This document shows, one piece after another, positions 1,192-20,389 of a DNA stretch of 28,937 nt. Each line of letters begins with the position of its first letter. Position 1 is the stretch's first letter. The DNA lies in the IMG/VR virus record IMGVR_UViG_3300032046_002276, positions 1 through 28,937 of that record; one strand, written 5' to 3'. The stretch comes from a virus. The notes beneath the pieces were generated by a model. That model searched no databases. It was given only the letters and a program-made list of their open reading frames with translations, and was not told the DNA's origin. A program made the translations under genes and the position numbers.

Positions 1192-1475
1192 GCAGCACCA
1201 CGCCCAAGGACGGTAGTCCGGCTTCAAAAGCTATCGAAGAGGGATTAGTCCCGATCAAGGACTATAAAACCCTCATCATGTTGATGACTTCTGGTATTGC
1301 GCACAAGAAAGTCATCTACGATGGTGATGTTTTGCTTTTTTGCTTTCTCAAGGCCGAGATTGAAGAAACGCTCAAGAAATACTTGACCACTGATGTGTTT
1401 ATGGTCAATATCTATGATGTTTGGCGTTCGATGGATACCTTCAAGAGTTACTTGAGCAGTAGACCAAATAGATGA
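1188..1475 (+). CDS. Small hypothetical protein upstream of terminase (candidate packaging accessory)
   Basis: This 95-residue protein starts at an ATG overlapping the previous stop and ends in an ATGA overlap (1472-1475) with the large terminase. It looks mainly alpha-helical, with a central segment (YKTLIMLMTSGIAHKKVIY) and a second half rich in hydrophobic and charged residues (LLFCFLKAEIEETLKKYL). The tight coupling to the terminase makes a small terminase subunit or packaging partner a reasonable guess. It is short for such a subunit and I see no clear DNA-binding motif, so this rests on context alone. Confidence 0.75.
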   Translation: MSSTTPKDGSPASKAIEEGLVPIKDYKTLIMLMTSGIAHKKVIYDGDVLLFCFLKAEIEETLKKYLTTDVFMVNIYDVWRSMDTFKSYLSSRPNR

Positions 1476-3100
1476 CGAAACGCATATACACTCTCACGCC
1501 TAGCGAGGCTGAGATCATAAAGGCCAGTAATTCTGACGCAAATGTCTTCGCCAGTTACTGGTTCAAGCCGGATGGGATAGATCTGCCCTGGACCTTCGAT
1601 TACAACTTCACCGAGGAGGGTAAATGGCAAAAGCTAACTCACGAAGCGGCTCAAACCGACATTATTGTCATTGGTGGGTTCGGAACAGGCAAAACTGGTG
1701 GCATAGGCATGTCGGCGCTCGTCTGGTCGTCAACAACCCCATATTTCAAGTTCCTAAACGTCGCTGAGAAGGCTTGGCAAGCTAAGCAGATGTACGACAT
1801 GCTTTTGCAGAACGTTGGTGGAACTCCGTTCGAGAAGTTGATTTACGAACACCCCCGCAGACCATTTCCAGCTATTTTCATCAAATATATGCTTGGAAAG
1901 ACTTTGGTTGAAAGTAGCCTGGAGTTTATGTCTGCTGATAAGGACGCCACGGGTATTTTGTCGTGGGAGGGAGATTGGATCAATGTTGAAGAAGCTGGAC
2001 TACTGGATAACCTCGAAGAGATCGTCACTTCCGTGGGTACTCGTTTGCGTGGTTCTGTTCGTTCTCGTCCTCGTCTTGGTCGCCTATCCCTCATCTCTAA
2101 CTCTTGGGATAACCCTTACCTATGGTATTTATTTGATCTCGCTCAGGACGATCCTAACGATTACCTTAGTATTGTGGTCTCTACTCGACAGAATAAAAAT
2201 GTCACGCCATCGCAGTTCGCAAAGATGCTTGCCCGTATTCCAATCGATGAAAGAGAAAGATTTATAGAAGGCACACGTCCAGAAGGCCGTGGTAACTACT
2301 TCGCCAAAAAATGTATTTATGAATGTGAAGACCAGCTTCAAGGTGAAGAAGCGCAGCGGAGGGCAGATGCAGGAGATGCGGGATGGATTGTCTTCAAGTT
2401 ACCAGGAGCAGGGGTCTACCACTACCAACAGCCACCCCAACGAAACCGTATCTACTTCATGTTGGGTGATCCTGGTGCCGGAAAAGCCCCCCAAAGAAAT
2501 GCTCCGGTTATCGGAGTGTGGGATGTTACCGACTTTCCCCGTGAGGCAGCTAGGTTGGTTGCCTTTTGGTGGGGAGATGGTGGCAATCAGATCACCCCCT
2601 TTGTCGATAAGTTGCTGGAATGGGATGAGCTTTACCGTCCTGCGCTAAAGGCTTGTGACGCCACAGGACCACAGAAAAACACCCATGAGCTTATCAACCT
2701 ACAGTACTTCAGCGACCAGGAAGTTTCGACACAGAAGATGGTGATCGGCCTGGACTTTAGCGGCAGTCATAAAATGGCCTATTTGATCGCCGCAAGACTA
2801 TTTGTGGAAGCTCAGCTATTGAGGTGGCCTAAAACGATTGTGGGTATTCGTTCTCAGCTTGCCAACTATGATCCAATGAAAGATCGAGTTGGTAAACCAA
2901 AGATCCCACAGGATATCGTCTCAATGCTCTCAATGGCGGCTCATATTATGAGGGTTTACTTCAATGTGGAAATTTCGACGTTGGCTGTCCAAGATTTGCC
3001 TGATAATGAGCAATCTCCTGATGAACATCGCAGACAAACTCGTGAGCGAAGATCCCGACGCTCAGACCATCGTGACAGGGCGGGTTACGAAGAGGTATGA
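1472..3100 (+). CDS. terL: Large terminase subunit (packaging ATPase-nuclease)
   Basis: The 542-residue product is the motor that pumps DNA into the prohead and cuts the concatemer. A Walker A loop (GGFGTGKT, residues 68-75) is followed by a Walker B-like segment with an acidic pair (WINVEEAG, E173-E174). The C-terminal RNase H-like nuclease domain shows the expected spaced acids: D333 in LGDPG, D396 in KACDATG and D481 in KIPQDI. Length is normal for the family. It is coupled by overlap to two small upstream genes and followed by a terminator and then the portal. The last ~35 residues are unusually rich in Arg, Asp and Glu and overlap another open frame (see 3006-3149), so the true C-terminus could differ. 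Confidence 0.93.
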   Translation: MTKRIYTLTPSEAEIIKASNSDANVFASYWFKPDGIDLPWTFDYNFTEEGKWQKLTHEAAQTDIIVIGGFGTGKTGGIGMSALVWSSTTPYFKFLNVAEKAWQAKQMYDMLLQNVGGTPFEKLIYEHPRRPFPAIFIKYMLGKTLVESSLEFMSADKDATGILSWEGDWINVEEAGLLDNLEEIVTSVGTRLRGSVRSRPRLGRLSLISNSWDNPYLWYLFDLAQDDPNDYLSIVVSTRQNKNVTPSQFAKMLARIPIDERERFIEGTRPEGRGNYFAKKCIYECEDQLQGEEAQRRADAGDAGWIVFKLPGAGVYHYQQPPQRNRIYFMLGDPGAGKAPQRNAPVIGVWDVTDFPREAARLVAFWWGDGGNQITPFVDKLLEWDELYRPALKACDATGPQKNTHELINLQYFSDQEVSTQKMVIGLDFSGSHKMAYLIAARLFVEAQLLRWPKTIVGIRSQLANYDPMKDRVGKPKIPQDIVSMLSMAAHIMRVYFNVEISTLAVQDLPDNEQSPDEHRRQTRERRSRRSDHRDRAGYEEV

Positions 3101-3218: not shown

Positions 3219-3258
3219 GCACATGATATGGTAAATGCCGTATCGTGTGCTTTTTTTT
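3219..3258 (+). terminator. Rho-independent terminator between terminase and portal
   Basis: Two 14-base arms (3219-3232 and 3237-3250) pair around an AAAT loop with only G-U wobbles as imperfections, followed by eight T (3251-3258). The portal ribosome-binding site AGGAG begins at the next base (3259). It should end terminase transcripts, or it may act as a 5' stabilising or attenuating hairpin for the portal mRNA. Confidence 0.85.
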
Positions 3259-3267
3259 AGGAGACCT

Positions 3268-4863
3268 ATGACATTAGGATCGCCACTTCAGCTAGTCCAA
3301 AACTTCCTACAAACGGTAGGTGTAGTTCCGTTTGATCCGTCTAATTTTCCCAGGTTTCCTTACTCAGAGTATCTGGCTAATAAGCGGATTTACCAAGTGC
3401 TCTGGAATTGGTACATTGGTAGTTCGTTGGAAGTGGATGTGGCTCAGCAGGGGAAAAAGATTGATCTCTACCCTGTAAAGATCAACCCAATCAGAAATGT
3501 CGTCTACAAACATGCTACTGCTCTACTTGGCGAAATCCGTGATGATGATCGACCCCTGGTAGTTCCTCGTGCTCTCCCGAAGGACAGAAAGTCAGCCGTA
3601 CATAAAAAGTTAGCTAAGGAAGTCGAAGATACTCTATCTGAACTATGGGCCGAAAACAATGGTCGAGCCATAATGTCAGAGAACGCTACTCTCTCACAGA
3701 TCTATGGTGGCTGTATCTTCAAGCTAACTTACGTTCCTTGGGAAACATGGCGTAGCATTCCAATCCGCATCGAACGTATTATGCCAGACCAATTCTTCGC
3801 CTATCCAGACATGTCCGACAGTTGGAGATTGTCTGAAATGTGGATCGTCAGTGAAATCACTAACGCCACCTCCGCAGATTACGGTGTTCCGCTCGATCCC
3901 GACGCCAAAGCCTGGATGATGGAATATTACGGTCCTAGAAGGCACTATATTCAGATCAATGGACGCACAGCTACTAAAATATTCGGGGATGAAGAGCATG
4001 TATTCGATGAGGAAAATCCAGATCCCTTTGTACCCGGAGTTTATATCCCACATCTTCGTGCAGGTAAGTTTTGGGGAGAAGGTGTCATTCCGGCGATCAT
4101 TGGTCTTGTAGAAGAACTGAATATGCGCTTTGCCGACTATGGAGATGCCATTTCCGACGATAGTCACCGTTATGTTGCTATGCGTAACGTAAACGGCACC
4201 CCCAAAGTCGATAAACTGTCTAATGGCCTAAATGTCATCAACCTGGGTTCTTCACAGACCGGATTGACCGGGCAAGGCGACCAACCTGATATGTTCGAGG
4301 TGAATAAGGGTTCTGCTAGTGCGCCAATGGCAGATTTGACTGAAAAGCTCATGGCGCAGATCCGTAGAGATAGTTTTATGCCTCCAATCGCAGATGGGGA
4401 AGATGAAGGCTCCCAAAGAAGCGCAATGACCCTTGCAGTTCGTTTTTGGCCTCTTACAAGCCATATCAACCTAGAACGGGTCAATTGGACAACTGGATTG
4501 AACATTTTCAACAAAATGGCTCTCCAGATGATGGCAAGTCGTGGTTTAGCTGGAATTACGCAAGATCACGTCGATAGTATCAAACTTCGCTGTAAATGGA
4601 ATAGTATTCTTCCAAAAGATCGAGATGCACTCATTTCCGAAGTAACAAACCGCTCAGCACAAGCCCTGGGCTCTCCAGAGCATTTGATGGAGATGCTAGG
4701 CGATGTCGATGACATCGAAGAGGAAATGAACAAGATTATTGAGTGGCTCAAAGAGAAAGCCAAGATACAGGCTCTAGCACAGCCTCAAATGGGCGGCTTC
4801 GGTGCTCCAGGTGGTGGCACCCCAACCGCTACTAAAGCACCACCAAAACCTACTACGAAGTAA
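3268..4863 (+). CDS. Portal protein
   Basis: The 531-residue product forms the ring at the capsid vertex through which DNA enters and leaves. I place the start at the ATG at 3268, because AGGAG (3259-3263) is correctly spaced for it, whereas an upstream in-frame ATG at 3235 lies inside the terminator hairpin. Support comes from its length, its position between terminase and scaffold, an N-terminal helical region with aromatic segments (YQVLWNWYIGSSLEVD), a central mixed region, and a C-terminal acidic helical crown ending in a low-complexity Gly/Pro/Thr tail. No catalytic motif is expected. It is translated just ahead of the scaffold, with SD-containing spacing of 12 bases. Confidence 0.88.
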   Translation: MTLGSPLQLVQNFLQTVGVVPFDPSNFPRFPYSEYLANKRIYQVLWNWYIGSSLEVDVAQQGKKIDLYPVKINPIRNVVYKHATALLGEIRDDDRPLVVPRALPKDRKSAVHKKLAKEVEDTLSELWAENNGRAIMSENATLSQIYGGCIFKLTYVPWETWRSIPIRIERIMPDQFFAYPDMSDSWRLSEMWIVSEITNATSADYGVPLDPDAKAWMMEYYGPRRHYIQINGRTATKIFGDEEHVFDEENPDPFVPGVYIPHLRAGKFWGEGVIPAIIGLVEELNMRFADYGDAISDDSHRYVAMRNVNGTPKVDKLSNGLNVINLGSSQTGLTGQGDQPDMFEVNKGSASAPMADLTEKLMAQIRRDSFMPPIADGEDEGSQRSAMTLAVRFWPLTSHINLERVNWTTGLNIFNKMALQMMASRGLAGITQDHVDSIKLRCKWNSILPKDRDALISEVTNRSAQALGSPEHLMEMLGDVDDIEEEMNKIIEWLKEKAKIQALAQPQMGGFGAPGGGTPTATKAPPKPTTK

Positions 4864-4875
4864 AGGAGATTAGTT

Positions 4876-5568
4876 GTGGTATTTCCAAATTCTGATCCCG
4901 CTCAGAACCCCGGTTCTGGCAACCCCACCTCGCCAGCCGATCCGCAGACCCCTGTGACCCCACAGACTACTGCTGCTCAGCCAGCGACCTCGGTGCCATC
5001 CCCTGATATTCAGGAATGGGAAAAGAAATACAAGGGCCTCCAAACGCTGGTAAATAAAGCGAATGGCGAAAGAGATAAGGCGGTAGCAGATCTTGCTACC
5101 TTGCAGGTTACGGTTGAAGAGCAAAAGCTCAAGATCGGCACCCTGGAAAAACAAGTCACGGACCTGACTGCCTCTGTTGGCACGAAGGAAAAGGACGTTG
5201 AAACTGCCAAGGGCGAAACCACGGCGAAAACCCTGGAAGTAGCTCGCCTGAAACTAATCGTCAAAGAGTACCCGCAACTGGCGTCGTTCGAGGCCGCTGG
5301 TGTCTTGCCCACAGCCACAACTGAGGATGAAATGCGTACCAAGTTCAAGGCATTCCAGGATGCCATGTCCTCCATCGTTGGAGAAGATGTGAAGGCGAAG
5401 CTCAAGGGCTCCAGCCTTCCCTCCGGTACTCCCACATCTACGCAACCTACGGAAGATGAAATATATGATGAGATGTCCCACATCGCAGGTGTGCGTGGCA
5501 AAGAAGATGAGTTCCGCAAACTGCAAAAACAGTACGACGCTTTGCGTGAGGCTCGACAGCCAAACTAA
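4876..5568 (+). CDS. Capsid scaffold protein
   Basis: This 230-residue protein starts at GTG (4876), with AAAGGAG at 4862-4868. The N-terminal ~40 residues are Pro/Thr/Gln-rich and disordered. Residues about 45-135 form a long coiled coil rich in Lys, Glu and Ala, with heptad-like Leu and Val. A short Ser/Pro/Thr linker leads to an acidic and basic helical C-terminus (DEFRKLQKQYDALREARQ) of the kind that binds capsid subunits. Coiled-coil composition and position between portal and major capsid gene are typical of scaffolds that organise procapsid assembly and are then lost. No protease motif is visible, and I see no separate maturation protease in the window. Confidence 0.85.
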   Translation: MVFPNSDPAQNPGSGNPTSPADPQTPVTPQTTAAQPATSVPSPDIQEWEKKYKGLQTLVNKANGERDKAVADLATLQVTVEEQKLKIGTLEKQVTDLTASVGTKEKDVETAKGETTAKTLEVARLKLIVKEYPQLASFEAAGVLPTATTEDEMRTKFKAFQDAMSSIVGEDVKAKLKGSSLPSGTPTSTQPTEDEIYDEMSHIAGVRGKEDEFRKLQKQYDALREARQPN

Positions 5569-5585: not shown

Positions 5586-6965
5586 ATGGCAGATCCCATT
5601 ACCGATTACTATTCAGATAATCCCTGGGAAGTAATCGACAAGAACCAACGACAGTGGTACGACCCCGATCTGATTGCGATGTACCGGGCGAAGTCCGTTT
5701 TCGCCCCAACTATTACTTTCGCAAAGAATATGTTGGGTGACGTTCGTACTACCAAGATGACGGTAACGGGCCTCATCGACCCGCACCCTGACTTCACCGC
5801 AATCACCAGCCGTCAGCTTTGGATGAACTCCCTGCACATCGATAGCCGTGCCATCGAGATCACGTTCGCTCGGTATGGCGGCAAGGTCAGTTATCACAAA
5901 TACGATGACATGGTGTCCTACTGGAAACAGAATGGCACCCAAGGTCTTCGTGCGATCATGAATGGCGTTCTTGGACAGCATCAGGTCGATGTCCTGGACA
6001 TGCTTGCCCGAAACGCCTACATCAAGGGTGCCCTGGATACTGGCTTCAATCTGTATACCAGTGGCTCCGCAACCAACTTCAACGGCCTGGGAATTGGTGA
6101 TAAGTTCAATCTGGATATCGCAATGGATATCTGGCTCGGCATGGCGAACCGCAACGTCGCCGCAGCCCTGGGTGCTAACGGCGCAGCCGATAGTATCATC
6201 TGCTTCACCACTCCTGGCGTCATCTATGATATCCAGAAAGACCCCGAATGGACCAGCGTCCGGCAGTATCAGGACTTGGCCTCTATCCTGCGCTATGAAG
6301 TCGGCGCATACAAGAACGTTCGGTTTGTTCAGTCTCCAAAATGCACACTGTGGAACTGTGGTGCCATTGCTGTGCGCTATCCGATCTCCGCAGCGATCAA
6401 CGCCGGAGATGGTTCCCCTGATCCCGCCACCACGAAAGTTGATGGGACATATCAGGTTGGTCAAACTGGCACTGGCGGTATCGTTCGCTACATCCAGTTG
6501 GGAACTGCGACATCGGGTTCTATCGCCAACATCGCCGTGAACGATATGATTACGATCCACAAGACCGTAACCAGCGCCTATGGTGTAACCAATGGCGTGA
6601 ACTTCAACGAAGGAAGTGCAATCACCCGGCGTGTCGTGGCAGTTGATATCCCCAATCGGCGTCTGGTCTTCGATAAGCCGATCATGGCCGACTTCACTGT
6701 GGATCTCGGCGCAGGCGTGTATGGCTACATTACCAAAGCTCGCCACATCCATGCGTCCATCTTCATCGGTGGGCCGCAGGGTATCGTGGCTGGTTCGGCG
6801 CAGCCCCCACGCTACTACACCCCACCCCCGATTGACGACTTCGAGAGTATCTATCGGTACTCGTGGGATGCCTTCATGGGTTACCAGCCGTATGCACCAG
6901 AGGTCTTCGAGTTGGTGTTCTCTGCTGGCTCCACCCGTGTCAAGGGTCCGACAGTAGTCCAATAA
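5586..6965 (+). CDS. Major capsid protein
   Basis: The 459-residue product is the expected shell subunit, directly after the scaffold with a GAGGTG ribosome-binding site upstream. The N-terminal half is alpha/beta (around TFAKNMLGDVRTTKM and GQHQVDVLDMLARNAYI). Residues about 290-385 are beta-rich and Gly/Thr-rich and may be an inserted surface domain. The overall pattern suits an HK97-fold capsid protein, possibly related to the N4 gp56-like group, but that is a guess. Codons end strongly in C or G, unlike the A/T-ending tape measure and fibre genes, as expected for the most expressed virion gene. It carries two TSGS tetrapeptides (residues 158-161 and 309-312). The codon bias keeps a long antisense frame open, which is not a gene. 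Confidence 0.88.
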   Translation: MADPITDYYSDNPWEVIDKNQRQWYDPDLIAMYRAKSVFAPTITFAKNMLGDVRTTKMTVTGLIDPHPDFTAITSRQLWMNSLHIDSRAIEITFARYGGKVSYHKYDDMVSYWKQNGTQGLRAIMNGVLGQHQVDVLDMLARNAYIKGALDTGFNLYTSGSATNFNGLGIGDKFNLDIAMDIWLGMANRNVAAALGANGAADSIICFTTPGVIYDIQKDPEWTSVRQYQDLASILRYEVGAYKNVRFVQSPKCTLWNCGAIAVRYPISAAINAGDGSPDPATTKVDGTYQVGQTGTGGIVRYIQLGTATSGSIANIAVNDMITIHKTVTSAYGVTNGVNFNEGSAITRRVVAVDIPNRRLVFDKPIMADFTVDLGAGVYGYITKARHIHASIFIGGPQGIVAGSAQPPRYYTPPPIDDFESIYRYSWDAFMGYQPYAPEVFELVFSAGSTRVKGPTVVQ

Positions 6966-8161: not shown

Positions 8162-9550
8162 ATGACTGTTATTGCTCAAGCAGGTGTCTTCGGGTTTGGA
8201 CCTCAGGGTACTATGGGCACAATTGCCTCAACCTTCTATCGTCATAAGGCAGGTGATATCGACTTAGCTCCAGTCGATGATGTCCGAACTGGTCCTCCCG
8301 AAATCGGTGGTGTTCCAGTGCCTACGATCCCGTACAAAGCGGGTTCTCTGGCTGCTGGTGGAGCAACCATCTATCCACGTCTCGAAAACACCCTGGGTTG
8401 GTTACTCTACGGCTCGATGGGTGGCTATACTGTGTCGGGTTCTGGTGGCGGCGGCGTTGGCTTTCCTGAGGTTTGTATGGGCCGTGTGTATCTCAAGGTC
8501 GCAACTCAGGTTGTTACCCGTGGCCTAACCAGCCCGACTTCTGGTTCCGGCACAAAGGTTATTATCAAAGGCTACCGAGATGGAGCCGCTCCCCTAACGG
8601 GGAACGTAATAATCAGAGGAACCACATCTGGTTCTCCAGTGCAAGAGACCATCGCTCTTAGCGATAAGAACGAAGTTCTCTCGACCTATATCTGGCAAAC
8701 TGTTACCCAGGTCGATTTGCCTGCATGGATAAATTCTGACGGTAATGATGCTGTGTCGGTTGGCTGGTACGACACAAGCATGCGTCAGCATAAGTTTGCT
8801 TTCAACAGTACGAACAACAGCCTGATCCCCTGGATGTCCTTCCGAAAACTGATCCCAGGCTCAAGCAACTCGCCAACCTTTGGTGAGCAGTTTGTTGACT
8901 GCAAGGTCCTGGGCATGACGTTCACTCTCCCCAATGAGGGCCTCATTGGTGCTCGTGTGGACGCTATGGGTCGTACCTTTGAATTTGTTGATACCCCTGA
9001 CCAATCCTGGTCGTGGGCCAACACTTACGAAGATTACACCAGCATCCCGATTGGCTGTACCGTGGGTGGCTACATCTCCGTTCCATCTTATGGAGATCGC
9101 CCACTGCCAGTTGTGGCATGCACAGTTGGAATTCAGAATGCTCCATTGGACATCCGGCAGGAACGAACCTACGGATCGCCGGACCTAGAGGACATCACCA
9201 TCACTGGACGACAACTGGTCTTCGATGTTACTTGCAAGTGGCGTGATCCTAGCCTGTATCGTGCTATCCAGACCAACTCACGGACTGGCACGGTATGGTC
9301 AACAGTGCCATTTGTGAAGTCTCTGGATGTGTACGCTCGTTCGCCAAGCTTCGCCGTTGGTGGCAACTCTCCTTACGCTCTGCGGATCGAGAGTGATAGC
9401 GTCATGTGGCAGTTGGCTGGCGGCGTTCGCCTAGTCGGAAACCAGATGGTTGCTGTTCGTATGCAGGGCGTTGCTCTGGATACCAATGGTAACTACGCAC
9501 GGATGAGCCTCATCAACCGTGTAGTTCAGTACCTCTGGCCTGCCTCGTAA
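8162..9550 (+). CDS. Major tail tube protein with an inserted beta-sandwich
   Basis: The 462-residue product begins MTVIAQAGVFGFGPQGTM behind AGGAGA. It is beta-rich throughout, with residues rising to a long hydrophobic and aromatic C-terminal half, as in tube proteins whose rings stack to form the tail. The length exceeds a minimal tube subunit. Residues about 115-200 read as an inserted Ig-like or beta-sandwich domain (KVIIKGYRDG... NVIIRG... ETIALSDK), which would decorate the outside of the tube. Three SGSG or SGSP tetrapeptides, two of them TSGS, flank or lie in this insert. No sheath gene follows, so the tail should be non-contractile. Codon use is C-ending like the capsid gene, which suits high expression. 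Confidence 0.8.
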   Translation: MTVIAQAGVFGFGPQGTMGTIASTFYRHKAGDIDLAPVDDVRTGPPEIGGVPVPTIPYKAGSLAAGGATIYPRLENTLGWLLYGSMGGYTVSGSGGGGVGFPEVCMGRVYLKVATQVVTRGLTSPTSGSGTKVIIKGYRDGAAPLTGNVIIRGTTSGSPVQETIALSDKNEVLSTYIWQTVTQVDLPAWINSDGNDAVSVGWYDTSMRQHKFAFNSTNNSLIPWMSFRKLIPGSSNSPTFGEQFVDCKVLGMTFTLPNEGLIGARVDAMGRTFEFVDTPDQSWSWANTYEDYTSIPIGCTVGGYISVPSYGDRPLPVVACTVGIQNAPLDIRQERTYGSPDLEDITITGRQLVFDVTCKWRDPSLYRAIQTNSRTGTVWSTVPFVKSLDVYARSPSFAVGGNSPYALRIESDSVMWQLAGGVRLVGNQMVAVRMQGVALDTNGNYARMSLINRVVQYLWPAS

Positions 9551-9634: not shown

Positions 9635-10081
9635 ATGCCCGTAAAACTAATTGCACCAATTGAAGAAACATTAGAACTAAGACGAACTGACGTTCTGCTC
9701 AAGAATGCCGGAGAGCCAACTACAGTTACTGTTCGTCAGGCTACGCAACGGCAGTTCGAGAAACGTGCCTCGACTTATGCAAACCTCGTGCAGCGTGTAA
9801 CGGATGAAGATCCTGGCTCCGTTGAGTACGTAACACGTTTTAGCCAGATTGAGCTTATGCGTATCGAGGCTAGTCTAACAGTTGTTGGATGTAACATCAT
9901 TGGGCCGGATGACGAACCGTTATTCAGGTTCAAAACGGATAATCAGGGAAAGGCTATGTTGATGGATGAAGGTGCCTTTTCCAAAGCCTGGGGAATGCTA
10001 CCATCCGAGGTAGCTGCTGAGATTTGGGAAAAAGTGCGTGAAGTGAACCTCGCCTGGAGGCCCTTGGGGGAAGTCTCTTAG
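9635..10081 (+). CDS. Tail assembly chaperone, short form (lambda G-like role)
   Basis: This 148-residue zero-frame product lies between tail tube and tape measure, the invariable place of tail chaperones. It has GGAG upstream of the ATG. It is mostly helical with a mixed alpha/beta N-terminus (RTDVLLKNAGEPTTVTVRQ) and ends EKVREVNLAWRPLGEVS. Such proteins coat the tape measure during tube assembly and are absent from virions. The stop at 10079-10081 follows a run of five G (10066-10070), where a -1 shift would give the long form. The family diverges quickly, so the call rests on position, size and the overlapping frame geometry. Confidence 0.8.
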   Translation: MPVKLIAPIEETLELRRTDVLLKNAGEPTTVTVRQATQRQFEKRASTYANLVQRVTDEDPGSVEYVTRFSQIELMRIEASLTVVGCNIIGPDDEPLFRFKTDNQGKAMLMDEGAFSKAWGMLPSEVAAEIWEKVREVNLAWRPLGEVS

Positions 10082-10399: not shown

Positions 10400-13300
10400 A
10401 TGCCTGCACAAGTGCCTCAGCCACCACAATTCACGAACCCTCTGTATGAGATGCTCAATAACGTCCTACAGCAGCGGTTTCCAGATATGTCGTTTGAAGC
10501 AGTAGAGGCTCCGGGTTCTCGTCCTGGACAGCCTGTGCGTTTTCAGGTTACACCTAAACGTGCAATGCGTAGCAACTCTGCTCAGGTTCCTGGATCGCCC
10601 AGGGGAACTTACAGTGATGCGCCATTGACCTTTCAGGCTCAATATGGGCCACCTTCCCCGTTAGGCAAAGAAGAAGACTTCAGCAATCGTTCGGTTATCA
10701 TCACAACACCTTCTAGGCAAAAGTACATCCTGGGCGCTGCTGGTATTGGTACGTGGAATTATGGTACTCAGTCTCCAGAATACAACTTCATGAACCCAAC
10801 TGAGAACCTCGCCAATATTGTTGGTGGCGCAATTGATATGGCTGGTAAGCCGTATGCAGGAACTCCAAATCAGCTATTCGAGTGGGGATTGACCAACCAG
10901 TCTCCTTCTCGTGGAATGGTTGGTGGTGCGTTGCGTCTCTCACCAAATCAAATGGGAACTCAGGCACCTGGACTTTGGGCTCAGCGTATCACAATGGCAA
11001 TGAATTATGAGCGTGGTGTCGCAGGTTCCTTCGATATTGGTCAGAGGATACAGAAACAAATGTTGGCTAATATCACTTCTGGTAGAGAGGGAACACCTTG
11101 GAGGGCTTTACAGAACTATTCAGTAATTGATCGTCTAGGAGATACATTCCGTCTCAAACCTGCTGGTGATGTCGAAATGTTTGCCCAACCAGGACAACCA
11201 GCCTTGCTTAGTATGGGTCGAGCAGAAGGTAGATTTGGTATCAAGACATCCTCTTCGATGGGTACACGCAACGCTCTGACGCCTCTTGAACTTGCACGTG
11301 ACCAGGAAACGCAACAGACCTTTTTTAGACCACTAACTTCTCAGGCTATTACCGAGGGAAATAGTTGGCGTAATTTACCACAATACGCAAGGCTCAATGC
11401 ACTATTTGGTGGAGAGGCTGGCGAGGGTGGCGATTTCATGAACCCTGCTCAGCCACAGCAGCGTTTGACTTCCTTGAGCATGTTTGCGCCTACCACGTTT
11501 CCTGGCGCAGCTATTATGAACCAATCCTCTTATTCTGGTATCTTTGGTTTTGGATATGAAAAGACCTTCAGAATAGGTTTGGGTAGTATGAACCTACAGG
11601 ATTTACTCAATCCTGATAAAGGTCTTGAGTTGTCTGGTATGCTAAGACCTGGGGGAATGATTAGGGCTGGAAGACGTCAAAACCAGACTATTGGCTACTT
11701 TGGTACGAGAGAGAATGCTCAGGGAGAAACTGAACGTACTCCAATAAGGCTTGGCCTTAGAACAAGCGATTTTATCGTTGGTAATGAGCCGGGTGCAGTT
11801 TCTTTGATGATCCCTGCAACTTATGGTAGAGACGACTATGGGCCATATGGCGAACCTACTACCGATCTATATGGTCGTCTACAGCAACGCTTTCCTGGAG
11901 TAAACATTGTACCTAGTGCAGATATCACAGAACCCTATCTAAATATTCATGGTAACTATCTTACTGGAGCTTCTGGTAAAGGCGAAACAGAGCTAAAGTT
12001 TGGTTTCAAGCGTGGCGTAATCGGTGAGATGGAAACTGGTGGCGTCAAGTACACTCCAACGTTGGTGACTGGAGAGACGAAGAGCTTACCAGCTACTTTG
12101 ATGGGAGCATTCGCTCTTCAGCCTTATGAGCAGCAGATGGAAATGCTTGCGATGGTAGATCCTCGCTTAGCTGCTGAAACTAGGAAGGCATACAAATATT
12201 CTGGTACTGGCCCATCTCCGGCGCTTCCTATCCGTGATATTGCTGCTCAGCTAACTGCTCTTCGAGCACCAGCTAACAATCCAGATGCTGTGGCTGGCGT
12301 CAACTATCCGATCACAACGCCGCTGAATATGTTTACCGAGATGCTTGGAAAGTTCCTGGGAGCCAACAATAAACAGAATGCAGCTAATATTGAACGATAT
12401 GGTATTGGTCGAACTGGAGAGCAATGGCTAACGTCACAGGTCTCAGATGAGACACGTATGCTATACCAGGGAATTATAAGTCAGCAACTCAAAGAGATAT
12501 ATCCCAAGGCTACCGAGGAACAGCGAACTGCTCTTGGCGAACAGTCCTTCACGTTCAAAAAGCAGACTGGTGGAATGTACGAAATGCGACAGCGCACATC
12601 TGGCGTTGTCATGCCAACAATTCTACCAGTTTCTGAGGAGTGGTTAGGACGATACTCAGGTAACTTTGAGGCTATGGCGTCAACGCAACAGCAGTTTCCT
12701 GAATTTGCTCAAGCTCTTGGTATGGCACCTGAGCAGGGACCATTGCAGCCTGGAGTAAGTAGAGCTACAAGATCATGGGCTGAGGCTTATAAACTTGAAG
12801 CCTATCGTCAGGATGCTATTTATGGCAATGTAGTCCAACCCCCTGGTAGTGTATCGATTGCTCAGAAAGAGGCCAAGACGATCCTTGATGTTGTGAAGGG
12901 AAAGATCTCCAAGGATACACCAGCAGAAGAAGCGATAGAAACGCTCAAAGGAGCTATAGAAAAAGTTGTTCCAGAAGCCGCAGGTGCAGGAAGCTTGTGG
13001 TTTCCAGGTGTTCAACAAGCTATTCTCGCTCCAAGTGCCTTCAGAGGCATAACTTCTATTCAGCGTGGCAAGGACGTTACTCAGATGTCCGGGGTCTACG
13101 CTAAAGCAGTACAGCAGTTGATGAAAGCAGAATGGCAAGGAAATCCAGGCGATACTGAAGGCGGTGCATATTCTGCATACCAGACATCTATAAATAGAAC
13201 TCTGTCTGGACGCCGAGCAAGATCAGCAATACGACGTATTTATGGTCGAGAGAACCAACTGGCTTTCTCTGCAAGATACGAACCAATGCCTGAGCTTGGT

Positions 13301-16300
13301 GCTCAAGAATTATTTGCTCCAAATGAAATTCTACAGAAGATGGGCTTGAATGTAAAGGAACTCAATAATATCAAGGGCCCAATCCCAATGGTAGTTGGTA
13401 GACAGCCTATCTTGAGCCGTGGTGGTGGCGTCGTCGGAATGAGTTTGGTAACAGAAGCAGAACTGGAACGTAGAGGAATTGCTTATCCAAAAACTCCATC
13501 AGTTGGAGGAAAAGCCGGAGATCCATTCTCTTGGGGTACTGTATTTACTGGCGAGGCATTCTCACGATCAATGCATGGTGATTGGGATCGTGATCTATTG
13601 TTTGCTATGCTTGGTCTTGAGCCAGGAACCAGAGAGGAAACTTATACAACCAAGGGTGGAGAAGAGCGTACCAGGACTGTAAAAACCTGGAACACTATTA
13701 TGACGCCTGATATAGTCGCCAATCTCAATATGCCAATGCAAGAGCGACTAAAGCAATACGAAAACATGATGAATGTCATGGGTCCGTTTAGTCCCAATCT
13801 GGATGTGCTTAGCAAGGCTGTGAGATCCATTCTTGAGGACCCATATAAAGAGGCTACCAAAACGTCTCGGCTAACCAAGAAGGGTGCTGTCCAAGCTGGC
13901 ATCCCGATGAATTTGGTGTCTGAAGCCTCGTACTTGACTAATGTAACAGCAGCCAGTGGAAAAGGTCGTTCATATAATGTTCGGCGCTTTATGGAAGCTG
14001 CTTTGACTGCTGAGGGTGGTCGTGGCGAAGAAGAAATCGCAATGGGATACGACACCAGCGCCTATATGTTCCAGCAATATCTGGACGTTCTGCGCACGAA
14101 AGAGCAAGGCTTTACTCCGCTAGAGGAGGCTATTGGCACAATAAATGTTGGTAGAACTGGCAAGATGACAGCTATGCAAGATAGTGGCGAGAGTAACTTT
14201 GCCTATATGACCGATAAAGGCCAGTACGATCTAGGCGCTTTGGCTCTAAATGCTGGCCTCGATCCATCTCTGTCAAATGAGTTTCTATCGGTAATGTTTG
14301 GGCAAGGTAAGGCTGGTGCTAAAGGTATCCGTAAGGCACTAAAACCATTTGGAAAGTATACCAAGGTAGAAGGCGACAAGGTAGTTCCCAATGAAGACGT
14401 TCTAGAACAGCGAGGTCAGGCCATGCAGGAGATGGCTAATAACTGGAATGGAAAAGGTCTGATTGGAGCCACATCGCCTATCTCCAATATTCTTACGGTA
14501 TCTGCTATCGAACGAGCACGAAGAAACCAGCGTACTGATAGAGAGCGTTGGGAAGGCATGCAGACCACATATGTTCCCTGGCAGGGTAAGGAAATGCAAG
14601 TCCAGGATGTCATCAAAGACGAACAGTATCGTGCCACACGTACTGCATATAGGTTACTGGTGCGTCAGGGACAAATCTCCAGGTCTGATATTGATATCTT
14701 GGCAGAACGTGGTGCTGGTCTTCCGCTTGGTAGACTTGCTAAAGGTATTTCTGAAAATGTGCTAAGGACTTCTGAGGCTCAGGCTATCGCTCAGGCAAGC
14801 TCTGCTGTGCAAGATCAGGCTATTGCAGCAACAGCACTAACTGGTATCGAGAACCTTATGCAGGGCACAGTCCGTATGCATGCTTCTGAGGTATACGAGG
14901 CTTACAACCGTCCTGAGAGTATGGCTAGTTCCAGCGATGCTATAACTCAGATTGCGGCAAGAACGGCTTTTGGAAAAGACATTCTTACCAAGGATGCCGC
15001 TATATTTGGAGTTGGTGAAGAGATCGAGCAGGCCGTTGGTCTGGTAAAGGACAAGCGTTTCCGTCAAGGTCTTGGTATTCACCTGGGAGGTCGAACCGAG
15101 AAATCTGCACTTGCCTATGTGACAGATCGAACTGTCGTAGAGGGCAATCCCGACTTCTTTGCCATGACCAGGGGTGCTCCGGGTACACAAATGACACCGC
15201 TCTTTACAGAGGTCAAGTCTACGAATAAGAATATGTTCAATGCGATAAAAGCTAGACTTGCTGGAAAGAGTACTGGCAACCAGGGCATGGACGATCAGGC
15301 AGATGAGCAGCTACGCAAATACAAACTCCAGACCCAGGGTTATGAAGAGGCTCTGGTACAGCATAGAAATCAGCTAAATTCTGCTCAGGCTGAGTTTGAT
15401 GTAAATCCAAATCCACAGTCAGAAGCTGCGCTAAAACAGGCAAAGGCCAATATGGTTGCTATTGCTGAGCAGCTTGTGCCAACTGGTGGAGGTGGAAGTG
15501 GCACAGAAAGTCTTACTCGTTCTCTTTGGCGTCAGGAGATATCTGCTGGTAGGGTAGGCGATCCGAGATCTCAGCTTGTATTAGCTAACTACGAAAGCAG
15601 AGAAGCACTTGTTGTAAGCCCTGAGCAGTTCTCTCCATATGCAACTCCAGATTACGCATCGGTAGTTCAGGGTGCTCAGGCTAAGATAGGTAGTGCGTCG
15701 GTTATGCAGCCTGTCATGGAGAGAATTTCCAATCTACCAACTGGACGTCCATCAGTTGGTGGTGCTCATGCTGAGGTTCCACTTAGCCTCTCGTCTGCGG
15801 TTCCAGCGCCTGAGTTGCAGACTGCTAGACGTGCATCGGAACAGATGGCTACATCAATGGCACTTGGTCTTCCTCCAGGACTAACAATGCTGCCGCCTAT
15901 TAGCGCACAGCAACAGGCTGCGGCCTTGGCTGCATCTCCTATAACTCCAGTTGGTGGAGGTGTAAGTCCGTCGTTCACTCTACCGACTTCTGGTGGTGCA
16001 AGTGCTGGTGGTGGCGCAGGTGGTGCTACGGCTGGTGGTGCAGGTGCTGGTAGTACTGGTGGTAATATTCCGGGAACCCCTGTGGCTCCTGCGGTTACTC
16101 CTCCTGGTGCTCCTGGTGGCGGTAGGATAAATAGAGCTTCACGAAGAGCAGCTACAGCGTCTTTAGCTAAGGCTATTGGGCAAGCAGAAAGTCTTGGTGA
16201 TATCGATACTGCCTTTGAGGGCGTACAGACTGCTGTCAACAGAATAATGGGTTTAGCTCCAGATACTGATCTAACAGAGAACACTTTCTTTGGAGCTATG

Positions 16301-19300
16301 GAAAAAGATGTACATGGGTTGATAGCAACGATTGGTCAGCAACCCATGAAGAAAATGGGCGAAGCCGTAAAGTTGAATGCCCAACTTGAAAGAGCCTACA
16401 ATCAAGCAACTGCTGCTGGAGTTGGACCAAGAACAAAGGTTAGAGGCCAGCTAAAGAAGTATCTTGGAACCACACAGGCAGATAGGCTCAATGCTCTTGA
16501 GGAGTTTGGCACTGTCTTACAGCAGTTTGGTAAAGCATCTGCTACACCGGAGGGTCTCAACGCCAGCGTATTCATGGATGTTATGGGTGGAGAAAAGGTC
16601 CAGAATGTTATCAAAGAGCTTGCGGGAATTGGTATCGATATCAATGATCCACTTTCTGTAATGGGAGGTTTACAGCCAGATATAGCAAAACAGGCTGTCG
16701 AGATAATGAATAAGGCACCTCATGCGATGGGTGCCGTAAGGGGAGTTGCAAAAACTATTGGTGATACTGGTGGATTGGTTCCTCCAACTACCGCTAATGC
16801 TGCAACCAATCTGAACTGGCTCATGGGTGGTCTAAAAAATGAGGGTCTCAAGGTAAAGTCTCCAGAAGCTGAGACAGAGATATCCAGTACTCTGAAACCC
16901 TATGCAGACAAACTTCGAGCAAGTTTTGACAAACTAACAACTGCCTCTGAAAATCTCACAAAGGCTAAAGGCGATGAAGTAAAGGTAACTCAGGAGAGTT
17001 TCGATAAGGCCAAGGCACGATATAACCTAGACCTAGCTAGGTACACACGTGTTGGCTTGCAGGAAGAATACGCTGCACTCAAGGGCCAACCTGATTTATC
17101 TAGAGAAGAGATTGCACGGCAGACACAAATAGGTGGCATGCTCGAAAGAACTGCTGGTGCAGAAAGAACTGCACTAGAAGATGTTCGAGAAGCAGAAGGT
17201 GGTGGTGGACTTACTCCAAAGAAACTATCACGCTTTGGTCGTGCCGTTATGGGTGGTTGGGGCCTATTCTATATGGGGCATCTCGCAAAGCTTGGTATGG
17301 GCGAATGGCAACAGGGTTTTGCGGCGGAAGAACAGTATCAGGCTTCGGTTGGACAAGCAGCCGGACAGTATCTTGGAGCTTATCCTGGGCAATTCAACGT
17401 AGCTACTCAGATGCAAAGAGCCGCTCAGATCCGTGGTGGTGGCGCTATGGGTGCTAATCTGGCAAGAACACAGGCTGCATTACCTATGGGTCTAATTGGT
17501 GATATTGGTGGCGCAGCTATGACTGGAGTTGGCGCAGGACTATTGACCTCCTACGTTGGAGGTGCTATGGTTGGTGCTGGCCTCGCTGCTGAAGCGACAG
17601 TAGGTGTAGCAATTCCAGTTATTGGTTTGATTGCTGGAACTCTAGCCCTTGGCGCAACACAGATATCAAATGCAATGGATAGAATGACACCTGTTCGACA
17701 AGCAACTCGTACACTAAGAATGGGTCAACTTGCTGAGCAAGGCAGAACGTTCGAGGCAATTGGTCAAGGCGCTGAGTGGATGTGGAATGCTACCAATCAG
17801 ATGATTGCCGGACCGCAGGTATTACAGAGAGAAAGTCGCTACGTGAGTGCGATGGAAGCGTATACGGGTGCTGGTGGTGCCTATGATTGGAGGAAACAAG
17901 CTGCTCGTCTTGAGGGTACTCCAAGCATTGGTATATCTAATATGGCGATGGCTACGGCTCTTGCCGATACTAGGTTCGAGGGTCTTGCTCCTGAGTATGC
18001 AGCCTCTGCGATTATGATGCAGTATTCGGGTGGCGTAAATAATAAATATCAGGTTGAGCAGGCTGCACAGTTGGCTAGTGCAATGCAAGCTGGTATGGAT
18101 ATCAATAAACTTCCTTCTCAGGTTCTCGCTGCTACGCAGGGTGGATATCCTCTTCCCTCTAGAATGCTTGGTATATCTGGTGGTATGCAGACCTTTTTGA
18201 CTGGTTCTGGTGCTCAAACGCAGGCTACGATAGCGGCTGGTGCTGGTGTTCTTGGACAGGTACCAATGGCCTATAATATTCTAAACGCCTCTGCTACCAC
18301 ACCAAGCGAAGTAAGTAGCATGTACTATTCGGATTATCCAATCCGTCCAGATATTAGTCCACCTGTTAGAGGAACCTCACGTGGAAAAATGACTAAAGGC
18401 GGTGCAAAAAGCACATACGAAAGTGATCTTGCTGCCTACAATGCTGAGATGGATAAGTATAATCAGAATATAACAAACTGGCTTGCTAAAACAACTTCAA
18501 TTGCGGCAGGTGGTGATGACGAGAAAAGATTAGCAATTACTCAGCGGTGGGCAAAAATAGCTGGTCAGCCACTTGAGAGAGAGGGTGTCACTGCGCTTAC
18601 TAACTGGTCTATTGGTGCGGCCTATGGACTTGAGACCGCAGCAACTATGCCAACTCCTGAGCAATTTCTTGGCACATGGACACCCGAACAACGAGTAGCA
18701 GAAGATCGTAAACAGTTTCGTGCTGCAAGGAGAAATGAACTAGCTCAGACTATGGTGGCAACTACCACACTAAGTGCTGAGCAAATTACAGGTATCTCCG
18801 CTGGTGCCGCTGCTGCTGGTTCCAATGCGCTAAACTTCCTACAACAGGTTGTCAATCGTGATCCACAAGCTGTGGCAATGCAAGCTTTTAGAACTGGAGG
18901 CTACAAGCAGCGTCCTGAGTTGATCTCTGTCGATCTCAATCGACAAGGTGGCGCAACGGGCTTACCACTCTATACTAGTAATATGTTCGACTTCCAGGCG
19001 CAGCAAGTTTGGGGTGCTGGCTATGCTCAAGGTCCTGGTGGCGCATTCAGGGCTGGTGCAGTACAGGGTGTCCAGAGCGAATATGGAATGCTATACGGTT
19101 CGAGAGCCTTGCAGTGGCAGCAACAGCAGAGAGGATGGGAGTACCAACAGCAACAGCAGGGCTTCCAACAGGAGAGTATAAATCTCCAGAAAACATACAT
19201 GCCACAGTTCTGGTCAATCGAGGACCGCCAGCGCCAGCTTGGTTATCGTCAGCAAGCCTGGGACTTTGGTAGAGCAGAACAAGGTATGGCTATTGGTGCT

Positions 19301-20389
19301 CGACAATTTGGTGAGCAGCAAGCACTATCTCAGCGTGGTCTTGGTCTAAGCGCCAGCCAGTTTACTGAAGGTCGGGCTCTACAATGGCGTGGCATGCAGA
19401 TGAACCAAGCCTGGGCCCAGGAGCAATGGGGTTATCAGGATGTTACTCGTCAGATGCAGTGGGGCTGGAAACAGGAAGACTTCCAAGAGAACGTTCGTTT
19501 CACTACTGGACGTCAGCGTCGTTTGGCTGAGCGCCAGATGGGGCGTGAAACGATCATGTATGGTCTGGAGACAGAGCAGATCAATAAAGAACGTGAGCAT
19601 CAGAAAGATGTGTTTCGTCTCCAGGAGCAACAGTTCAACCTTGAGAGAAAGCATTTTGGCGAGAACCAGAAAATGCAAGAGGAGAGCATGGCTCTCCAAA
19701 GAAAACACTTCGAGGAGAACCAGAAGTTCCAACTTGAAGGCATCAAGCAGCAACGTGCATTCTACGAAGAGCGAAAGGCTATAGAAGAAGAGAGTATCAA
19801 GCTGAGCCGTGAGTACCAGCAAGAGCAGATGAAGCTTAGTCAAACTCAGTTAGAAGCTCAAAAGAAGTACGCCGCCGATATGCACCAGATGGCTATTGAT
19901 ATGACCAAACTTGGTCAGACCCAGGAGGATATAGTAGGCAAGTTCCAAGAGGGTGCCAAGTTTGAGAAAGAGTTCATTGATGGCATCTTAGCTGCGGAAA
20001 CCTCGGTTACCAAGATCCACGATATGTGGATAGAGATTGCGAAATCTCTTGGTCTCGATCTTTCTAGCTCTGGTTCAGGTGGACAGGCCGCCTCTAAGGA
20101 AGCTTCAAATCTTCGCAAGCCCAAGAAGGGAAGAGCACTTGGTGGATATCTTTCTAGTGGAGAACCATCAGAAGTTGGTGAGGCTGGTAGAGAAATTTTT
20201 GTACCTGAGACAAGTGGAACGATTATTCCAATGACTAAGTTGCACAATCCCTGGCAGGATTTGCTTGGTACACGCAATATGAAACTACAGGACAGCAAAC
20301 GTGAACCACTTACTTTGCATCTGCATGTAGGTGGTCAGTACCTGGGCAAATTCATTATCGACACTGTTGAGAAGGAGTTGAACGTATGA
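10400..20389 (+). CDS. Giant tape measure protein with N-terminal RNA polymerase-like and nuclease-like modules
   Basis: This single frame of 3329 residues starts at ATG 10400 (CGGAG upstream), follows the chaperones and overlaps the distal tail gene by ATGA. The tape measure identity comes from position, size, coiled coils (about 2100-2240 and 2905-3195), a hydrophobic Gly/Ala-rich region (about 2275-2435), and a C-terminal signature common in tape measures (GGYLSSGEPSEVGEAGREIF to SGTIIP, about 3245-3280). The N-terminal 1900 residues are unusual. They contain beta-like RNA polymerase motifs (about 380-560), a beta-prime-like DxDxD motif (D1061, D1063, D1065), a PD-(D/E)XK-like motif (P1584-D1585, E1604, K1606) and a Gly/Ala/Pro linker (about 1850-1910). 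I infer a virion enzyme fused to a ruler protein. The tape measure call is secure; the enzymatic modules are motif-based. Confidence 0.92.
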   Translation: MPAQVPQPPQFTNPLYEMLNNVLQQRFPDMSFEAVEAPGSRPGQPVRFQVTPKRAMRSNSAQVPGSPRGTYSDAPLTFQAQYGPPSPLGKEEDFSNRSVIITTPSRQKYILGAAGIGTWNYGTQSPEYNFMNPTENLANIVGGAIDMAGKPYAGTPNQLFEWGLTNQSPSRGMVGGALRLSPNQMGTQAPGLWAQRITMAMNYERGVAGSFDIGQRIQKQMLANITSGREGTPWRALQNYSVIDRLGDTFRLKPAGDVEMFAQPGQPALLSMGRAEGRFGIKTSSSMGTRNALTPLELARDQETQQTFFRPLTSQAITEGNSWRNLPQYARLNALFGGEAGEGGDFMNPAQPQQRLTSLSMFAPTTFPGAAIMNQSSYSGIFGFGYEKTFRIGLGSMNLQDLLNPDKGLELSGMLRPGGMIRAGRRQNQTIGYFGTRENAQGETERTPIRLGLRTSDFIVGNEPGAVSLMIPATYGRDDYGPYGEPTTDLYGRLQQRFPGVNIVPSADITEPYLNIHGNYLTGASGKGETELKFGFKRGVIGEMETGGVKYTPTLVTGETKSLPATLMGAFALQPYEQQMEMLAMVDPRLAAETRKAYKYSGTGPSPALPIRDIAAQLTALRAPANNPDAVAGVNYPITTPLNMFTEMLGKFLGANNKQNAANIERYGIGRTGEQWLTSQVSDETRMLYQGIISQQLKEIYPKATEEQRTALGEQSFTFKKQTGGMYEMRQRTSGVVMPTILPVSEEWLGRYSGNFEAMASTQQQFPEFAQALGMAPEQGPLQPGVSRATRSWAEAYKLEAYRQDAIYGNVVQPPGSVSIAQKEAKTILDVVKGKISKDTPAEEAIETLKGAIEKVVPEAAGAGSLWFPGVQQAILAPSAFRGITSIQRGKDVTQMSGVYAKAVQQLMKAEWQGNPGDTEGGAYSAYQTSINRTLSGRRARSAIRRIYGRENQLAFSARYEPMPELGAQELFAPNEILQKMGLNVKELNNIKGPIPMVVGRQPILSRGGGVVGMSLVTEAELERRGIAYPKTPSVGGKAGDPFSWGTVFTGEAFSRSMHGDWDRDLLFAMLGLEPGTREETYTTKGGEERTRTVKTWNTIMTPDIVANLNMPMQERLKQYENMMNVMGPFSPNLDVLSKAVRSILEDPYKEATKTSRLTKKGAVQAGIPMNLVSEASYLTNVTAASGKGRSYNVRRFMEAALTAEGGRGEEEIAMGYDTSAYMFQQYLDVLRTKEQGFTPLEEAIGTINVGRTGKMTAMQDSGESNFAYMTDKGQYDLGALALNAGLDPSLSNEFLSVMFGQGKAGAKGIRKALKPFGKYTKVEGDKVVPNEDVLEQRGQAMQEMANNWNGKGLIGATSPISNILTVSAIERARRNQRTDRERWEGMQTTYVPWQGKEMQVQDVIKDEQYRATRTAYRLLVRQGQISRSDIDILAERGAGLPLGRLAKGISENVLRTSEAQAIAQASSAVQDQAIAATALTGIENLMQGTVRMHASEVYEAYNRPESMASSSDAITQIAARTAFGKDILTKDAAIFGVGEEIEQAVGLVKDKRFRQGLGIHLGGRTEKSALAYVTDRTVVEGNPDFFAMTRGAPGTQMTPLFTEVKSTNKNMFNAIKARLAGKSTGNQGMDDQADEQLRKYKLQTQGYEEALVQHRNQLNSAQAEFDVNPNPQSEAALKQAKANMVAIAEQLVPTGGGGSGTESLTRSLWRQEISAGRVGDPRSQLVLANYESREALVVSPEQFSPYATPDYASVVQGAQAKIGSASVMQPVMERISNLPTGRPSVGGAHAEVPLSLSSAVPAPELQTARRASEQMATSMALGLPPGLTMLPPISAQQQAAALAASPITPVGGGVSPSFTLPTSGGASAGGGAGGATAGGAGAGSTGGNIPGTPVAPAVTPPGAPGGGRINRASRRAATASLAKAIGQAESLGDIDTAFEGVQTAVNRIMGLAPDTDLTENTFFGAMEKDVHGLIATIGQQPMKKMGEAVKLNAQLERAYNQATAAGVGPRTKVRGQLKKYLGTTQADRLNALEEFGTVLQQFGKASATPEGLNASVFMDVMGGEKVQNVIKELAGIGIDINDPLSVMGGLQPDIAKQAVEIMNKAPHAMGAVRGVAKTIGDTGGLVPPTTANAATNLNWLMGGLKNEGLKVKSPEAETEISSTLKPYADKLRASFDKLTTASENLTKAKGDEVKVTQESFDKAKARYNLDLARYTRVGLQEEYAALKGQPDLSREEIARQTQIGGMLERTAGAERTALEDVREAEGGGGLTPKKLSRFGRAVMGGWGLFYMGHLAKLGMGEWQQGFAAEEQYQASVGQAAGQYLGAYPGQFNVATQMQRAAQIRGGGAMGANLARTQAALPMGLIGDIGGAAMTGVGAGLLTSYVGGAMVGAGLAAEATVGVAIPVIGLIAGTLALGATQISNAMDRMTPVRQATRTLRMGQLAEQGRTFEAIGQGAEWMWNATNQMIAGPQVLQRESRYVSAMEAYTGAGGAYDWRKQAARLEGTPSIGISNMAMATALADTRFEGLAPEYAASAIMMQYSGGVNNKYQVEQAAQLASAMQAGMDINKLPSQVLAATQGGYPLPSRMLGISGGMQTFLTGSGAQTQATIAAGAGVLGQVPMAYNILNASATTPSEVSSMYYSDYPIRPDISPPVRGTSRGKMTKGGAKSTYESDLAAYNAEMDKYNQNITNWLAKTTSIAAGGDDEKRLAITQRWAKIAGQPLEREGVTALTNWSIGAAYGLETAATMPTPEQFLGTWTPEQRVAEDRKQFRAARRNELAQTMVATTTLSAEQITGISAGAAAAGSNALNFLQQVVNRDPQAVAMQAFRTGGYKQRPELISVDLNRQGGATGLPLYTSNMFDFQAQQVWGAGYAQGPGGAFRAGAVQGVQSEYGMLYGSRALQWQQQQRGWEYQQQQQGFQQESINLQKTYMPQFWSIEDRQRQLGYRQQAWDFGRAEQGMAIGARQFGEQQALSQRGLGLSASQFTEGRALQWRGMQMNQAWAQEQWGYQDVTRQMQWGWKQEDFQENVRFTTGRQRRLAERQMGRETIMYGLETEQINKEREHQKDVFRLQEQQFNLERKHFGENQKMQEESMALQRKHFEENQKFQLEGIKQQRAFYEERKAIEEESIKLSREYQQEQMKLSQTQLEAQKKYAADMHQMAIDMTKLGQTQEDIVGKFQEGAKFEKEFIDGILAAETSVTKIHDMWIEIAKSLGLDLSSSGSGGQAASKEASNLRKPKKGRALGGYLSSGEPSEVGEAGREIFVPETSGTIIPMTKLHNPWQDLLGTRNMKLQDSKREPLTLHLHVGGQYLGKFIIDTVEKELNV
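11522..13609 (+). other. RNA polymerase-like region inside the tape measure (two double-psi barrel candidates)
   Basis: Residues about 375-1070. The first candidate barrel shows SGIFGFGYEKTF (379-390), comparable to GYNYEDA in RNA polymerase beta; LRPGGMIRAG (415-424), like the beta pattern of a Gly-bounded V.xGD.L turn; and a Lys/Gly segment LKFGFKRGVIGEM (532-544), like HGNKGVISKI. The second shows VVGRQPILSRGG (998-1009), like the beta-prime RAPTLHR motif, then SMHGDWDRDLLFAM (1057-1070), like NADFDGDQMAV, with three aspartates in DxDxD spacing. The order, beta-like then beta-prime-like in one chain, is that of single-chain polymerases such as YonO and the crAss-like phage enzyme. The usual Gly of DFDGD is Arg here, and the spacing between the last two motifs is longer than in cellular beta-prime. 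Confidence 0.55.
14957..15360 (+). other. PD-(D/E)XK nuclease-like module inside the tape measure
   Basis: Residues about 1520-1655. A predicted helix with acidic residues (VGEEIEQAVG) precedes GNPDFFAMTR (P1584, D1585), then PLFTEVKST (E1604, K1606), then a helical stretch ending KLQTQGYEEALV. This is the spacing and order of PD-(D/E)XK nucleases: acidic helix, PD, ExK strand, then a helix with a Gln/Tyr signature. It would be a Mg-dependent DNA nuclease carried in the virion. No structural test was possible. Confidence 0.6.
15920..16130 (+). other. Low-complexity Gly/Ala/Pro linker in the tape measure
   Basis: Residues about 1840-1910 are dominated by Gly, Ala, Ser, Thr and Pro (for example GGASAGGGAGGATAGG) and then turn basic (RINRASRRAATA). 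The stretch separates the enzyme-like N-terminal part from the helical tape measure part. It may be a flexible hinge or a proteolytic processing site. Confidence 0.75.
17220..17700 (+). other. Hydrophobic segments of the tape measure
   Basis: Residues about 2275-2435 include AVMGGWGLFYMGHLAKLGMG and, after a polar stretch, a long Gly/Ala/Val/Ile run (LIGDIGGAAMTGVGAGLLTS through VGVAIPVIGLIAGTLALG). Two or three membrane-length segments are typical of tape measures that insert into the host membrane to form a DNA channel during ejection. Confidence 0.7.
19120..19990 (+). repeat. Gln/aromatic-rich coiled-coil repeats in the tape measure
   Basis: Residues about 2905-3195 are very rich in Gln, Glu, Arg, Trp, Tyr and Phe with short periodic units, for example RKHFEENQKFQLE following KHFGENQKMQEES. 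Tryptophans recur every few residues in the first half (QWRGMQMNQAWAQEQWGY). This suits a long rod; the Trp/Gln richness is unusual. Confidence 0.7.

Follow-up and report, generated by a model that had tools for sequence, protein, structure and literature searches.

A predicted two-barrel RNA polymerase at the N-terminus of a phage tape measure protein

Introduction

Can the ruler of a phage tail also be an RNA polymerase? The question is raised by an uninterrupted open reading frame (ORF) of 3,329 amino acids (aa) at positions 10400..20389 of the IMG/VR virus record IMGVR_UViG_3300032046_002276, a 28.9-kb phage fragment with a standard head-tail module, which is analysed here in full (28,937 nucleotides; hereafter the window, whose features lie on the + strand unless stated otherwise). 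A preliminary description of this DNA had read the ORF as a tape measure protein fused to a single-chain, two-barrel RNA polymerase, and had treated such a fusion as unprecedented. A precedent published in 2024 reduces this novelty: in gp96 of the Thermus phage P23-45 (Oshimavirus), a virion RNA polymerase has been proven to be fused to the tape measure (PDB 8H2M and 8H2N; PMC10770324). In this work, we analysed the window protein together with its relatives, and conclude that its N-terminal ~1,450 residues are very probably a single-chain two-barrel RNA polymerase, which would be housed in the tail, ejected, and set to transcribe the entering genome.

Results

The product of 10400..20389 is a tape measure protein, given its place in the tail operon and its typical C-terminus. 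The ORF follows genes for terminase, portal, scaffold, major capsid and tail proteins (PHROGs matches), and it ends in VGEAGREIFVPETSGTIIP, of a type that we take to be the usual C-terminus of tape measure proteins; several relatives have a C-terminus of the same kind. The part that is tape measure proper (15497..20386) comprises a Gly/Ala-rich linker, the single hydrophobic segment of the protein (residues about 2393-2424) and, at 20174-20200, the C-terminal signature, with the pattern VGExGxEhhhP..GTIIP.

The window protein had no match in Pfam, in PHROGs, among PDB sequences or by tblastn against 50,697 phage records, and its back-translated patterns found no relatives. Relatives were reached through the terminase, and from each record we took the ORF that occupies the place of the tape measure gene (2,400-3,800 aa where not cut). 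The resulting set, from a clade of uncultured tailed phages, comprises 15 tape measures (the window, G001, G002, G005, G008, G010, G011 (partial), G013, G017, G018, G020, G021, G022, G027 and G029); 14 of them, window included, reach the DxDxD site discussed below, and all 15 cover upstream rows such as that of G369. Identity among them is mostly about 17-33%, and ~21% or less outside a few pairs, the closer ones being G005/G011 (58%), G020/G022 (33%), window/G001 (32%), G021/G022 (26%) and G020/G021 (25%). A scan of a genome collection for further relatives yielded only two short contigs from metagenome-assembled genomes (MAGs), and none was found among 396 genomes from the class of one of these two. 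The two contigs (L106, L107), which carry the same terminase family, belong to MAGs of Anaerolineae and Magnetococcales.

Five motifs had been proposed to parallel, in order, elements of the RNA polymerase beta and beta-prime subunits, and all five are exactly where they had been reported: GFGYEKTF (residues 383-390), LRPGGMIRAG (415-424), LKFGFKRGVIGEM (532-544), RQPILSR (1001-1007; 13400..13420) and GDWDRD (1060-1065; 13577..13594). Their conservation is uneven. The pattern GDxDxD, counterpart of the NADFDGD of beta-prime, occurs exactly once per protein in 14/14 tape measures, at residue 966-1162, as compared with 1.5% of cases on average in shuffles of the first 1,300 residues of each protein. 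R1001, P1003, G1060, D1061, D1063 and D1065 are identical in all 14; the ~1,500 aligned N-terminal residues contain very few invariant columns, the polymerase signature being among them. The complete conservation against the shuffle expectation is the reason why the RxP and DxDxD motifs hold up. Among the variants found (GDWDRD, GDIDKD, GDLDRD, GDRDID, GDSDRD, GDFDLD, GDFDAD, GDWDAD, GDMDSD, GDWDID and GDIDLD), the aspartates are fixed and the positions between them are free. G016, G025 and G027 have a GDVDxD string in a protein of 309-475 aa; it lies outside the tape measure and was set aside as a decoy.

The other proposed parallels fared less well. RQPILSR keeps the RxP of beta-prime RAPTLHR and not the rest of the motif; in LRPGGMIRAG, likened to the Gly-rich turn of beta, only G418 is kept (12/15 rows). 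GFGYEKTF, likened to GYNYEDA, is not conserved, and the invariant glycine (15/15) is instead G369, in PGAAI. Nor are K533 and K537, the lysines proposed for the first barrel, conserved: judging from the alignment, better candidates are K561, in TGETKS (12068..12085; K in 13/14, R in one), as a putative basic active-site residue, and, less strictly, K527 (K or R in 11/15).

The fold was predicted (i) for residues 325-1500 of the window protein, from an alignment of 12 sequences, and (ii) for the core of the relative G022, from 14 sequences. In the G022 model, the best 50 VIA-align rows are all RNA polymerase entries (Z 9.2-9.6), the matched barrel being that of beta'/Rpb1, with tight fits (root-mean-square deviation 2.5-2.7 Å over 107-111 aa; best Rpb1 match Z 9.6, 2.5 Å/110); 512 chains reach a Z of at least 8. 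The title of row 44 names influenza polymerase; the chain matched there has 1,435 residues and is probably the Pol II Rpb1 in that complex. With Foldseek, the best 50 matches listed are again all RNA polymerases, and the two best are to the non-virion RNA polymerase of phage AR9 (7s00_d), with E 2.8e-4 (probability 1.00) and 8.3e-4; the named top matches in BFVD, a collection of predicted viral structures, are viral RNA polymerases. Both barrels of RNA polymerases are also found in PolD (PMC10770324), and the region could instead belong to a DNA polymerase of the PolD type, a primase-like enzyme or some other polymerase built on double-psi barrels. We consider this quite improbable: the best structural matches are without exception to RNA polymerases, among phage structures to that of AR9, and where a barrel polymerase has been proven in a phage tape measure, it too makes RNA (PMC10770324).

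In the window model, two different subunits are matched within one chain and in the required order, beta-like first and beta'-like second. Residues 386-521, in the predicted first barrel (residues about 366-600; 11495..12199), which contains the invariant G369 and the near-invariant K561, align to E. coli RpoB 832-1068 (the beta/Rpb2 barrel; Z up to 5.2) and to yeast Pol I A135 803-908 (Z 5.3), with Z 4.5-5.3 over the beta/Rpb2 rows. Residues 959-1118 (13274..13753), which form the second barrel, matched in the homologue model as well, align to Rpb1 366-524 (Z 4.6-4.9). Of the two double-psi barrels that had been predicted, the second is, by predicted fold, that of beta'/Rpb1 (Z to 9.6), and the first, upstream of it as required, is supported moderately. 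Between them lies a connector of ~350 aa (12197..13249), largely helical and modelled as a confident helical block; its PsbQ-like matches were taken as common helical bundles and set aside. Unrelated helical rows score as high as polymerase rows in the window model, which is therefore insufficient by itself, and its Foldseek E-values are weak (0.47 and up), so that the case is not rested on it.

By computation, a polymerase barrel fold with an invariant catalytic signature is present in the N-terminal half of the tape measure of every readable relative. That the motifs, found by eye in 1,900 residues and in part not conserved (GFGYEKTF, K533/K537), arose by chance in a long tape measure protein of the ordinary type is contradicted by the 14/14 conservation of DxDxD and RxP, the independent fold match at Z 9.6 and the Foldseek matches, and we give this explanation next to no weight. 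With the residues corrected as above, conservation and fold support the fusion of a single-chain two-barrel polymerase to the tape measure.

Downstream of the second barrel, a conserved helical element (KGRSYNVRRFMEA...FQQYLD; 13961..14086) may correspond to the bridge helix and the start of the trigger loop; in its helices (residues 1188-1229), G..YN..R and YQ..LD are kept across members, in a low-confidence part of the models. It is followed by a domain (residues about 1520-1690; 14957..15469) with PD-(D/E)XK-like motifs (GVGEEIEQ, NPDFF, FTEVKS and Q..Y), which are seen in the window, G001, G002, G005 and G021. At the same place, G029 matches PF12705 (PDDEXK_1; E 3e-5, 24.5 bits against a cut-off of 22). 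The window copy has motif support and no Pfam match, and some members of the clade would carry a PD-(D/E)XK nuclease-like domain. It lies between polymerase and ruler, at L115 4013-4615 (- strand) and L052 6545-7147 as in the window.

Discussion

The P23-45 enzyme offers the closest comparison. Its gp96 has 5,002 aa with DFDGD at 779-783, its active fragment 327-1124 extends RNA, and the protein was found full-length in virions and on pre-early genes at 5 min; its structure is flat and clamp-less (PMC10770324). As in the window, the tape measure of a siphophage begins with a two-barrel polymerase, the first barrel being moderately supported in our case; the beta-like barrel comes first and the DxDxD barrel second, with RxP before DxDxD (FRNPVM...VDFDGD in gp96), and the gene order (terminase, portal, scaffold, capsid, tail genes and tape measure) is similar in both phages. 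The differences are several: (i) the connector has ~350 aa in the window and 67 disordered residues in gp96, (ii) the DxDxD glycine is present in gp96 and absent in the window clade, (iii) the tape measure has 3,329 aa as compared with 5,002, (iv) the extra domain is a metallopeptidase in gp96 and PD-(D/E)XK-like in some members of the window clade, and (v) P23-45 has a second, non-virion polymerase, and none was found in the large relatives of the window clade.

We propose that the beta-like double-psi barrel, the beta'-like barrel and the long helical connector between them would together form a DNA-dependent RNA polymerase of the cellular-type superfamily, in which D1061, D1063 and D1065 would bind the catalytic magnesium and R1001 and P1003 would be the usual RxP element. 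The enzyme would be made as part of the tail ruler, sit in the tail tube and exit with the ruler at infection, and it would then transcribe those genes of the phage that enter first, either ahead of the host enzyme or in its place, in line with what has been shown or proposed for P23-45 gp96. For activity, packaging, ejection and template, the inference is drawn from the gp96 precedent, and for P23-45, too, it is a hypothesis that the polymerase passes with the tape measure and transcribes during entry (PMC10770324). On this analogy, the clade polymerase very likely works like gp96, and the virus probably carries its own RNA polymerase inside its tail.

Several observations weigh against this proposal. 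No sequence or profile match of the tape measure region to any polymerase was obtained, and the profile comparison (hhalign) with P23-45 gp96, whose side comprised three related sequences, was not significant (P 0.59 and 0.51). Both models are of low to medium confidence overall (predicted local distance difference test, pLDDT, 51 for the window and 63 for G022; predicted template modelling score about 0.34), the G022 model having pLDDT mostly 60-93 in the barrel region, and the first barrel is supported at Z about 5 only, in the low-confidence window model. The bridge helix and trigger loop are candidates only. A promoter motif search gave nothing above shuffles in G021 and a marginal result only in G022 (two of the three large relatives). 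Finally, R, K, L, I, A or S stands where the cellular DFDGD has its glycine. The loss of this glycine, together with the extreme divergence of the clade and the space that a fused ruler may be constrained to within the tail, would suit a two-barrel fold that is no longer catalytic and acts in the tail as a structural part or a guide for the DNA. The three aspartates and the RxP, which an inactive enzyme should lose, are invariant in 14/14 with their neighbours free, and we regard a loss of catalysis as unlikely. As regards the missing profile match, the authors of the P23-45 study noted that such polymerase families have little in common beyond the DxDxD region (PMC10770324).

Apart from the promoter search, the palindrome TCCTAWTAGGA was observed in G017 (loci L076-L080) in 16 copies over 84.6 kb. 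Many of them are intergenic, one lies within the tape measure gene (21432) and one in the terminase region (12305); they look like operator or stoperator sites of a repressor.

Among the matches listed, the solved phage structure that comes closest to the DxDxD barrel is the AR9 non-virion RNA polymerase. The AR9 and phiKZ multisubunit RNA polymerases consist of separate subunits, with no tape measure fusion. The crAss-like phi14:2 gp66, YonO and QDE-1 also lie outside tape measures, gp66 as a separate virion protein, and keep the DxDxD glycine. The virion RNA polymerase of N4, a giant protein ejected for early gene transcription, is a podovirus head protein with a T7-like right-hand fold and without double-psi barrels. 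No match to the T7-like fold appeared among the structural matches listed, and Pfam lists no polymerase family for the tape measure region. Multisubunit RNA polymerases of jumbo phages have been described (PMC7598289), and gp66, YonO and QDE-1 resemble the window protein in having both barrels in one chain (PMC10770324; PMC5467207 for YonO).

The arrangement is not new in kind, and by sequence comparison the clade is a lineage without detectable similarity to P23-45 gp96. The profile comparison with P23-45 gp64 was not significant and the terminases of the two groups did not match (P 0.08); descent of the two polymerases may be either shared or separate. In three relatives of 82-85 kb, whose records may be incomplete, the motif was found only in the tape measure among ORFs of at least 250 aa. 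PF00940 and PF05183 had no match in the large relatives, the first search having been run without a positive control and the second giving a weak signal in one such control. It is tempting to speculate that the clade polymerase is independent of the Thermus one, is the only RNA polymerase of the phage and is injected with the PD-(D/E)XK nuclease as a multi-enzyme entry protein, a combination that we consider doubtful.

In the papers searched, no tape-measure-fused polymerase was found reported outside Thermus phages, although the supplementary survey of the P23-45 study (PMC10770324) may list some of these sequences. If our proposal is correct, a single published case (P23-45 and kin, a few Thermus phages) would become a recurrent design, in which phages without recognisable kinship to it also house polymerases in their tail rulers, and whether such enzymes transcribe DNA while it enters the cell becomes a testable question. 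The 14 very diverse sequences of a new two-barrel lineage may also point to the indispensable residues among those universal to RNA polymerase active sites: the three aspartates and the RxP stay, and the DFDGD glycine does not.

Other features of the window and its relatives

Upstream of the tape measure gene, the window encodes the large terminase subunit (1472..3100; phrog_2, E 3.1e-11), which served as the clade marker for finding relatives, the portal protein (3235..4863; phrog_64, E 4e-22), the scaffolding protein (4876..5568; phrog_172, E 6.3e-5) and the major capsid protein (5586..6965; phrog_1357, E 2.2e-12). The tail protein at 8162..9550 (phrog_290 minor tail protein, E 1.6e-5) is, by its position, probably the tail tube, and the 148-aa protein at 9635..10081 occupies the usual place of a tail assembly chaperone. 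An open frame of 449 aa that runs opposite to the major capsid gene (5613-6962, - strand) is probably a codon-usage artefact.

In the larger relatives, a DUF4942 protein is encoded by both G021 (L074 18136-19572, - strand) and G022 (L066 1217-2833, - strand), with a methyltransferase-like part in G021, where a DnaB-type helicase is also present. The product of window positions 25028-26674 has a weak match, below cut-off, to the pectate-lyase-like PF12708 (E 0.0013) and is a probable tailspike or fibre depolymerase. A twister-sister self-cleaving ribozyme, which was not found in ~150 kb of the relatives' DNA, lies full-length at 123-212 of the window on the - strand (RF02681, 59.9 bits against a gathering threshold of 34, E 2.2e-11).

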